The notes under the pieces were generated by a model, which was not told the origin of the DNA, made no database searches, and saw only the letters and a list, made by a program, of their open reading frames with translations. Of a stretch of 38,173 nucleotides of DNA, positions 18,628 through 21,238 are shown one piece after another. Source of the stretch: Vicinamibacterales bacterium (GTDB taxonomy: Bacteria; Acidobacteriota; Vicinamibacteria; Vicinamibacterales; UBA8438); the NCBI GenBank assembly GCA_029940535.1, contig JAPYUM010000017.1, positions 20,448 through 58,620 of the forward strand, in the 5' to 3' direction. The stretch's first letter is position 1; each line of letters opens with the position of its first letter. The position numbers were made by a program, and so were the translations under genes.

Positions 18628-19251
18628 ATGACGACACGGACCTGGACCGGCCTTGCGAGTGTGCTGCCGCTACTGTTCGTCGCCTGCGGCGGTGATGCGC
18701 CTGGGCCAGCACCGTCGACGCAGCCGATTGAAGAGCGCGCGGGGGCCAGAGACGTGCAGGCCAGCGGGGCGGACTTACCGATCATCGCGCCCGATGACGT
18801 CCAGAAGAGCCAGAGCGGCGCGGTCTTCCAGCGCGTGGCGAACACCGACATCGAGGTGGTCTACGACCGTCCCGTGGCCCGAGGCCGCGAGCTGTTCGGC
18901 GGGATCGTGGCCCTGGACGAGGTGTGGAATCCGGGGGCGAACGATGCGACCGCGATCTCGTTCAGTCGCGACGTGACGGTCAATGGAGAAGCGCTGGCGG
19001 CCGGCCGGTACTCGCTATGGGCCATTCCTGGCGCCGGGGACTGGACCGTCATCTTCAGCACGGCGGCCGACGTGTATCACACGCCGTACCCCGGCGAGGA
19101 ACACGATGCGGTGCGTCTCACCATCACCCCGCGCCGCGGCGACCACGTGGAGACGCTGGCGTACTACTTCCCGATGGTCGAGGAGAAGGACACCGAGCTG
19201 GTTCTGCACTGGGGCGAGACCATAGTCCCAATGATGATTACCGTCCCCTAG
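18628..19251 (+). CDS. DUF2911 lipoprotein
   Basis: This 207-residue protein has a short leader and a lipobox-like LLFVAC, with Cys near residue 20, so it is probably a membrane-anchored lipoprotein. After a Pro/Ala-rich linker the DUF2911 domain is seen: VVYDRPVARGRELFGGIVAL, VWNPGANDATAISFSRDVTV, GEALAAGRYSLWAIPG, WTVIFSTAADVYHTPYP and a final VLHWGETIVPMMI strand. DUF2911 is common in Bacteroidota and Acidobacteriota and has no known biochemical role. AGAGGAG at 18611-18617 fixes the ATG. The 107-bp hairpin element begins 11 bp after its stop and could serve as its 3' end. Confidence 0.9.
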   Translation: MTTRTWTGLASVLPLLFVACGGDAPGPAPSTQPIEERAGARDVQASGADLPIIAPDDVQKSQSGAVFQRVANTDIEVVYDRPVARGRELFGGIVALDEVWNPGANDATAISFSRDVTVNGEALAAGRYSLWAIPGAGDWTVIFSTAADVYHTPYPGEEHDAVRLTITPRRGDHVETLAYYFPMVEEKDTELVLHWGETIVPMMITVP

Positions 19252-19262
19252 TTTCCCGGCGA

Positions 19263-19369
19263 GGTTTTCCTGGCGAGGCGCCCGCCTGGCGGCGTTGCTT
19301 CCTCGGTCACATGCCGCCTGCATGCTCCCTCGTCGCGCCTTGCCAGGCGAACGCCTCGCCAGGAAAACC
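19263..19369 (+). repeat. 107-bp hairpin element, copy 1
   Basis: The arms GGTTTTCCTGGCGAGGCG (19263-19280) and CGCCTCGCCAGGAAAACC (19352-19369) are perfect inverted repeats of 18 bp. After a two-base mismatch the pairing resumes for about seven more pairs (19283-19289 with 19343-19349). The centre is identical to copy 2 over 57 bp. A degenerate echo of the left arm, TTTCCCGGCGAGG, sits just before it at 19253-19265. It fills the gap between the DUF2911 gene and the amidase, whose start is 11 bp beyond the right arm. Confidence 0.9.
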
Positions 19370-19379
19370 AGCGTCATCG

Positions 19380-21128
19380 ATGGATGAAACCAAGTTGGAG
19401 AATGAACAGGGAACTGCCGTGAGCTCTGATACTCGACGCACCGACAATCCCACTCGGGTCACCCGCCGCGACTTCTTATGGTCGTCGGCGGCAGTCGGGA
19501 GCGCGGCGGCGATCGCCGGGCCGATCGCCTGCGCGCCGCCGGGCCCGCCCGACGCCGATCCGGTGCGTGAGGGTGTCGACGCCGTCGACGATTTTCCGCT
19601 CGAGGAGATGACTGTCGACGCGCTGCAGGAGGCGATGGCGAGTGGTGAGTGGACCGCCCGCTCGATCACCGAGGCGTATCTCGCGCGTATCGAACAAGTC
19701 AACCTCGAAGGCCCGGCGCTTCGAGCCGTCATCGAGACGAATCCGGACGTCGAGATTCTTGCCGCCGAGCTGGATCGCGAGCGGGGAGGATCGGGACCAC
19801 GGGGCCCGCTTCACGGGGTGCCGATCGTTCTCAAGGACAACATCGACACGGGCGATCGCATGACCACCACCGCCGGGTCGCTGGCGCTCGAGGGCTGGGT
19901 GCCGCCACGGGACTCCGCCGTCGCCGCCAAGCTGCGGGCCGCCGGGGCGGTGCTGCTGGGCAAGGCCAATCTGAGCGAATGGGCGAACTTCCGGTCCACT
20001 CGGTCGTCGAGCGGATGGAGCGGCCGGGGCGGTCAGTGTCGGAACCCCTACGTGCTCGACCGCAATCCGTGCGGCTCGAGTTCCGGGTCCGGGGTGGCCG
20101 TGTCGGCCAACCTGGCCGCAGTCGCTATCGGGACTGAAACCGACGGGTCGATCGTCTGCCCCTCGACGGCCAACGGCATCGTCGGTATCAAGCCGACGGT
20201 CGGGTTGGTCAGCCGCGCCGGCGTGATCCCGATCTCGCACACACAGGATACGGCGGGACCGATGGCACGCACGGTGCGAGACGCGGCCATCGTCCTCGGC
20301 GTATTGGCCGGAACGGATCCGAATGACCCGGCCACCGCCGACAGCGACACTCGCGGGCTGGTCGACTACACGCCGTTCCTCGACGCGGACGGTCTGCGCG
20401 GCATGCGCATTGGCGTGGCGCGTCGATTTCTAGGTTTCCACGCGGTGGTGGACCAGGTGGTCGAATCCGCCATCGCGGCCATGCAGTCGGCCGGCGCCGT
20501 GATCGTCGACCCGGTCGATCTTCGACCGATCGGTGGGTCGTCGCCAGGCGAGTTCACCACCCTGGGGGCGGCGGAGACGCAGGTCCTGATGTACGAGTTC
20601 AAGGCCGGACTGAACGCCTATCTCGCTCGCCGTGGCGCAGACGCGGAAGTCCGTTCGTTGGCGGACCTTATCGCGTTCAACGAGCGGAACGCCGAGACGG
20701 AGATGCCGTACTTTGGCCAGGAGCGGCTACTCGAGGCGGAGACAAAAGGACCGCTCACCGAACCGAGGTATCTGGCCGCGCTCGCGGCGTCTAGCCGGTT
20801 GTCGAGGGCCGAGGGCATCGATCGCACGATGGACGAGCACCGGCTCGACGCCATCATTGGCCCGACGGGAGGGCCCGCGTGGGTCACCGACCTCGTCAAC
20901 GGCGATCACTTCGGCGGCAGCAGCTCCCAGTATCCGGCGGCGTCCGGCTACCCCAACATCACGGTCCCCGCGGGAGACGTCCATGGCCTGCCAGTCGGTC
21001 TCTCCTTCTTCGGCCGCGCCTGGAGCGAACCGACCCTGATTCGTATCGCCTATGGGTTCGAACAGACCGTGCAGGCCCGCCTCGTGCCGCGCTTCCTCCC
21101 GCGGTTTCCTGCCGAGGCGTCCGCCTGA
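19380..21128 (+). CDS. Tat-targeted amidase-signature family hydrolase
   Basis: This 582-residue enzyme hydrolyses amide bonds with a Ser-cisSer-Lys triad. The lysine is in VLKDNIDTGDRMTTTAGS (Lys152), the cis-serine in CGSSSGSGVAVS (about Ser233) and the nucleophile in TETDGSIVCPS (Ser257). The leader VTRRDFLWSSAAVGSAAAIAG is a twin-arginine signal with a following cysteine (IACAPP) that could be lipidated, so it acts outside the cytoplasm. A GTG at 19419 is an alternative start; the ribosome site for either is poor. The last residues, about RFPAEASA, and the TGA are encoded by hairpin element copy 2, so the original C-terminus has probably been replaced. The gene is bracketed by direct copies of that element. 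The substrate is unknown. Confidence 0.92.
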   Translation: MDETKLENEQGTAVSSDTRRTDNPTRVTRRDFLWSSAAVGSAAAIAGPIACAPPGPPDADPVREGVDAVDDFPLEEMTVDALQEAMASGEWTARSITEAYLARIEQVNLEGPALRAVIETNPDVEILAAELDRERGGSGPRGPLHGVPIVLKDNIDTGDRMTTTAGSLALEGWVPPRDSAVAAKLRAAGAVLLGKANLSEWANFRSTRSSSGWSGRGGQCRNPYVLDRNPCGSSSGSGVAVSANLAAVAIGTETDGSIVCPSTANGIVGIKPTVGLVSRAGVIPISHTQDTAGPMARTVRDAAIVLGVLAGTDPNDPATADSDTRGLVDYTPFLDADGLRGMRIGVARRFLGFHAVVDQVVESAIAAMQSAGAVIVDPVDLRPIGGSSPGEFTTLGAAETQVLMYEFKAGLNAYLARRGADAEVRSLADLIAFNERNAETEMPYFGQERLLEAETKGPLTEPRYLAALAASSRLSRAEGIDRTMDEHRLDAIIGPTGGPAWVTDLVNGDHFGGSSSQYPAASGYPNITVPAGDVHGLPVGLSFFGRAWSEPTLIRIAYGFEQTVQARLVPRFLPRFPAEASA

Positions 21129-21208
21129 CGGCGTTGCTTCCTCGGTCACATGCCGCCTGCATGCTCCCTCGTCGCGCCTTGCCAGCCGAACGCCTCGGCA
21201 GGAAACCG
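21102..21208 (+). repeat. 107-bp hairpin element, copy 2
   Basis: The arms CGGTTTCCTGCCGAGGCGT (21102-21120) and ACGCCTCGGCAGGAAACCG (21190-21208) are perfect 19-bp inverted repeats. Compared with copy 1 it has the same length and nine base differences. Six of these form three matched pairs in the stem (positions 1/107, 3/105 and 11/97), each keeping the base pair. Bases 28-84 are identical in both copies. The left arm is translated as the amidase C-terminus, and the single difference at element position 27 (G in copy 1, A here) completes the amidase TGA stop. Confidence 0.92.
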
Positions 21209-21238
21209 TTCTTCGTCGTGTTTTGGCACTCTCTTGGC

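Follow-up and report, generated by a model that had tools for sequence, protein, structure and literature searches.

A high-copy, probably mobile hairpin element with a core common to several bacterial phyla, at the stop codons of a Vicinamibacterales bacterium

The window, a stretch of 38,173 nucleotides from a Vicinamibacterales bacterium, carries two copies of a hairpin element, one at the end of a DUF2911 gene and the other at the end of an amidase gene (Table 1). The amidase label, given earlier in a sequence-only reading of the same DNA, is right (PF01425, E 2e-89 in a profile search). Copy 2 has replaced the native C-terminus of the amidase (its last codons) and provides the TGA stop. 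The two copies are each 107 bp long and identical at 98 of 107 positions, with compensated pairs at 1/107, 3/105 and 11/97; our re-alignment agrees with that reading in all of this, and it places the nine mismatches at element positions 1, 3, 11, 19, 27, 85, 97, 105 and 107. The 57-bp centre that it described as unchanged is indeed invariant between the copies, and we refine it into a core of about 50 nt plus an inner helix. The doubled left foot of insertion 1 is also present at the orthologous insertion in a relative (G003, L212), a partial duplication found in two species.

Table 1. Coordinates of the two hairpin copies, their parts and the neighbouring genes in the window.
Feature	Positions	Strand	Basis or remark
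DUF2911 gene	18628..19251	+	ends at insertion 1
CTAG, left edge of insertion 1	19248..19251		TAG serves as the DUF2911 stop codon
Additional partial left foot TTTCCCGGCGA	19252..19262		comparison with the orthologous site
Hairpin copy 1	19263..19369	- (folding strand is minus)	BLAST, alignment, covariance-model matches
Conserved core, copy 1	19292..19341	-	minus strand AAGGCGCGACGAGGGAGC...GTGACCGAGGAAGCAACGC; common to other phyla
Amidase gene	19419..21128	+	stop TGA 21126-21128, inside copy 2
Hairpin copy 2	21102..21208	-	BLAST, alignment, covariance-model matches
Conserved core, copy 2	21131..21180	-	sequence; core common to other phyla
5' tail of copy 2	21209..21236	-	related to terminal repeat TAGCAGGNTGCTGAAAAACG of IS5-type (DUF772) insertion sequences

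The element is not confined to this locus. The genome of the window (G000) is a draft of 4.83 Mb in 228 contigs, in which BLAST with copy 1 gives at least 40 scored full-length matches, and a covariance model built from 29 local (G000) copies, R1, finds at least 143 copies. The whole-genome search for which the sequence-only reading had called thus reveals a dispersed family, the opposite of a core limited to two copies with arms that do not covary elsewhere. The element is present in 28 of 40 genomes from the genus, family and order of the window, with 1 to at least 95 copies in the carriers. At site 1 both G000 and G003 carry the element; the site is empty in G004, where GTCCCGTAG is directly followed by GGCCAG, and G001 seems to keep a remnant. 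At site 2, G000 alone carries the element, and G001 to G004 all have the empty site. Filled and empty orthologues are thus found at both sites, a comparison also proposed earlier, and because their patterns differ, the two insertions are independent and the amidase, which had been taken for a potential cassette, is not one. Other insertions of G000 are missing from G003. That two direct copies lie 1.8 kb apart would agree with a simple local duplication around the amidase, an explanation that the genome-wide copy number and the different phylogenetic ages of the two insertions leave with a negligible probability.

Read on the minus strand of the window, a complete local element consists of C-TA, a GCAGGNTGCTGAAAAACGnCCGAG tail of about 27 nt, a hairpin GGTTTTC...core...GAAAACC, and TA-G. 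The hairpin measures about 107-160 bp and has neither a transposase gene nor an ORF that is conserved from copy to copy; a small ORF in the core was rejected as a candidate since it is not conserved between sub-families. The tail occurs 42 times in G000 at three or fewer mismatches (a reversed control pattern, 0 times) and is attached to 43 of the 101 local copies, many copies having other 5' flanks. Some local copies have the core missing, or swapped for a C-rich hairpin. At three G000 loci (L289, L297 and L304) an additional C-rich hairpin, GCGCCCCGCCCGGCCGGGCGGGG, sits in the apical loop. The core itself, about 50 nt, is AAGGCGCGACGAGG...GACCGAGG(A)AGCAACGC, and it can be drawn as 5'-GC GA C GA GG GA GC-3' over 5'-GC GA CC GA G GA GC-3', a putative arrangement in which three tandem G·A/A·G motifs are framed by Watson-Crick pairs. 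Distant members, when folded, give the same three-tandem-G·A shape. The predicted fold gains support from the local copies because the single pair between two of the G·A motifs swaps between G-C (65 copies) and C-G (32 copies). The third G·A motif is degenerate in the local sub-family.

The stems covary strongly. Of the 36 pairs compared over 29 local copies, 12 have changed on both sides with pairing retained. Across the 101 local copies the stems contain 364 G·T cells versus 32 A·C cells, with the six or so most frequent G·T column pairs accounting for most of the wobble excess. A double-strand process would yield G·T and A·C equally, which identifies the minus strand of the window as the one that folds. 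For 39 selected arm-distinct copies, we analysed the apical stem and the inner helix, which lay outside the core search pattern used to find these copies. There are 123 two-sided changes, versus 31.5±4.4 in shuffled data, and 92% of cells are paired, versus 29-39% when one side is slid; covariation in these 39 copies is above chance, as expected of a structured RNA. Considered alone, the arms fold better on the local folding strand in 33 of 45 copies with distinct arms (p=0.002); folding with own arms gives -71.6 kcal/mol versus -50.0 with arms exchanged between copies. The covariance model and stem check suggested earlier therefore find strong covariation, both locally and in the 39 copies. 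No Rfam model matches the element, and the sub-threshold microRNA matches reflect chance hairpin similarity. Quasipalindrome correction in replication, a known process, could in principle produce the symmetry by itself and leave the fold free of selection, and arms that are near-perfect inside each copy yet differ from copy to copy are what it would give. It does not account for wobbles kept on one strand at fixed positions or for a non-palindromic core that is identical across phyla, and as the sole cause we find it very improbable. Selection on the hairpin together with a sequence-specific core, which the sequence-only reading had suggested, is supported by the covariation, the one-strand wobbles and the conservation of the core across phyla.

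The reach of the core was determined with an exact pattern of 29 fixed bases with gaps, searched in named genomes, and at least 111 stretches contain it. They come from records labelled Acidobacteria (Vicinamibacterales, Bryobacterales, Thermoanaerobaculia), Myxococcota (Myxococcales, Nannocystineae, Kofleriaceae, Sandaracinaceae), Verrucomicrobia, Gemmatimonadetes, Elusimicrobia and Nitrospinota, and from one Flavobacteriales bin; these records are mostly metagenome bins, and misbinning is possible for single records. Several groups have multiple copies with group-specific arms, wholly different from group to group and paired within each copy. A model of the wider family (R2) matches in 28 of 199 Acidobacteriota genomes, about a seventh. 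The phages, plasmids and viral contigs searched contain no match to the element.

Target duplications are visible in recently active sub-families with near-identical copies, other than that of the window. In a myxobacterial genome (G040), 8 of 11 copies have 3-bp (TNA) direct repeats and none has 4-bp repeats. About half of the copies have direct repeats in two other genomes, of 3 bp (TAA/TTA) in G218 and of 4 bp (CTAG, CTAA, TTAG; YTAR type) in G152, in a tabulation that counts palindromic copies mostly twice. As both 3-bp and 4-bp repeats are found, the elements that share this core follow at least two target-duplication rules. In G218 (L489-L491), a second sub-family with near-identical copies (TAG|TCCTCTGGAAACGTGAT...) occurs beside the GGGCCC sub-family, so that two arm types have been recently active side by side.

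The ends of the elements point to candidate movers. Terminal inverted repeats are present at both ends of the elements of G152, G218, G040 and G010, and the sub-family of the window has an insertion-sequence-like end on its 5' tail side only; for its other end, GGAAAACCTAG, no match is seen among the insertion sequences found. In G008, a 1.46-kb insertion sequence starts with the end TAGCAGCCCGTGGTGAAA and encodes a transposase with DUF772 and DDE domains, most similar to IS1182; the palindromic elements of G010 and other relatives share this end. G001, which belongs to the genus of the window, has an insertion sequence of the IS5 family (275 bits to NF033581, above the cut-off) whose ends, TCTAGCAGGCTGCGGAAAAAC and GTTTTTCAGCAGCCTGCTAGA, are the local tail sequence. 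Two element end types thus match terminal repeats of DUF772 (IS5/IS1182-like) insertion sequences. The core is absent from these insertion sequences, and the only core near a DUF772 gene is in the G009/B71T1B8 genome, about 1 kb from the match. Neither G000 nor G003, both with many copies, has a DUF772 gene; draft genomes often drop repeated genes. The gene is also missing from 8 of 12 other core-bearing genomes, for which reason we dropped DUF772 as a universal mover and propose it for Vicinamibacterales only. For G040 and G218 we find no autonomous insertion sequence with matching ends.

Other movers were considered and rejected. A group II intron or retroelement derivative is rejected because five copy-rich genomes (G000, G003, G016, G018, G022) have no reverse transcriptase; reverse transcriptase and Y1_Tnp/RAYT genes alike are unlinked to copy number. 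Inspection rejects an integron attC (no paired AAC/GTT boxes, 28-bp arms, dispersed copies). No conserved neighbour gene emerges as an autonomous partner, and the large ORF clusters overlap the element itself. The idea of a REP/REPIN-like element, which would be moved by a RAYT (a Y1 HUH transposase) recognising the folded single strand, had been raised from the sequence, and it fits both the preferential folding of one strand and a terminal TAG that often supplies stop codons, as GTAG REPs do for neighbouring genes (PMC3733652). The RAYT check that came with the idea finds no core near any of 20 Y1_Tnp loci and no RAYT flanked by the element, and five copy-rich genomes (G003, G016, G010, G014, G021) have no Y1_Tnp gene. 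Together with the existence of target duplications, the absence of a GTAG tag and a length far above the 20-40 bp of a REP palindrome, this makes a RAYT origin rather improbable.

Many copies sit on stop codons. Where a gene reads into the 3' side of a local copy, the junction itself forms a TAG stop in 41 of 61 cases, for which GTAG REPs offer a precedent (PMC3733652); over all local copies, 48 of 101 abut exactly the stop of an open frame of at least 210 nt. In other phyla many copies are likewise on TAG, TGA or TAA stops. This placement is partly expected, because many CTAG sites outside genes are already stops: in 1.09 Mb of G003, called with a home-made gene caller, 127 of 370 such sites are stop codons. 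In our reading, target preference and purifying selection together account for the placement, and part of the excess is real. An orientation bias at stop codons, 10 to 1 at first, became 18 versus 10 when a defined 5' end was required, and we do not claim it. Of the 797 stops called in G003 stretches L223-L282, 349 are TAG, which is high for a GC-rich genome and possibly linked to the TAG preference of the element.

One could instead see here a host-maintained RNA element at mRNA 3' ends, kept mainly by selection for stability or termination and mobile only in the distant past. The strong covariation and strand bias speak for it, as do the many copies directly past stops, often between convergent genes. 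Its patchy occurrence (0 to at least 95 copies among relatives, 28 of 199 genomes in the phylum) and the lack of a conserved neighbour gene weigh against it; where a gene abuts the 3' end of the element, moreover, the mRNA carries the less stable strand, and no intrinsic terminator is found in the element. We regard this explanation as unlikely.

A non-autonomous, MITE-like mobile hairpin is the reading that we prefer, with a probability of about 0.68; the high copy number, the empty sites and the absence of a transposase gene agree with the MITE-like dispersed family suggested earlier. DUF772 transposases would move the element in trans via its ends; the shared ends are the same type of evidence as that which assigned RUP of Streptococcus pneumoniae to IS630-Spn1 (PMC2229807). 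TA-containing targets and purifying selection would leave most surviving copies on or just past stops. Since the core stays constant while the arms and the type of target duplication change, it may act in a folded form, as RNA or as single-stranded DNA. As a weak guess, it could be a stable RNA feature at mRNA 3' ends, and the tandem G·A motifs might allow a long hairpin to be tolerated or provide a binding site for a widespread factor. More tentatively than for mobility itself, and at clearly less than even odds, the core, with its three stacked tandem G·A motifs, may be an independent structured RNA or single-stranded DNA module that crosses phyla by capture between the ends of unrelated insertion sequences that differ in their target rules. 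It would then be conserved for a role in its own spread or in the control of 3' ends at the stop codons on which it lands.

Several known systems resemble the MITE-like element in part. RUP, which is 107 bp long and moved in trans by IS630-Spn1 (PMC2229807), is likewise a short high-copy hairpin MITE with a TA-containing target and a mobilisation deduced from ends shared with an insertion sequence; unlike our element, it is limited to pneumococcus, and neither a cross-phylum core nor strand-specific covariation has been reported for it. ERIC and Correia/NEMIS (PMC2229807) are also mainly intergenic palindromic repeats of 100-200 bp with stable RNA hairpins, but they have other sequences, hosts and target and no core common to phyla. 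GTAG REPs, REPINs and RAYTs (PMC3733652, PMC3116915) share palindromes, end-derived TAG stops and single-strand folding, whereas our element lacks a RAYT link and a GTAG tag and has target duplications and a much longer stem. IS5/IS1182-like DUF772 insertion sequences (NF033581, NF033551) share terminal repeats and a CTAG/YTAR-type target; unlike the element, they encode a transposase and have no core. The best reading is a cross-phylum variant of bacterial MITEs, in which a structured core is carried by elements with different transposition systems.

MITE interiors are usually regarded as dispensable and lineage-specific. Here the interior is constant across phyla, the ends that should be recognised by a transposase vary, and constraint on the fold is specific to one strand. 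The unusual feature is a structured core common to phyla and to elements with different ends and target rules, and it raises a testable question, what reads the core. This family, absent from Rfam, occurs in about a seventh of the sampled Acidobacteriota genomes and sits on stop codons; a genome-wide effect on mRNA 3' ends in these little-studied bacteria is therefore probable.

Two further arrangements of copies are seen. At six G000 loci (L016, L056, L007, L010, L004, L013), the hairpin is part of mosaics with another dispersed repeat, AGACGGGGCTGCGCCCCGAACCCC...GCGGGGACCCCGAGTGCCCCACTCCGCGG...GCGCGCACGTGCGCGCC. Tandem or half-overlapping copies in the same orientation, at L061 (G002:C1021), L004, L014, L027 and L120, suggest repeated insertion at one place, or slippage.
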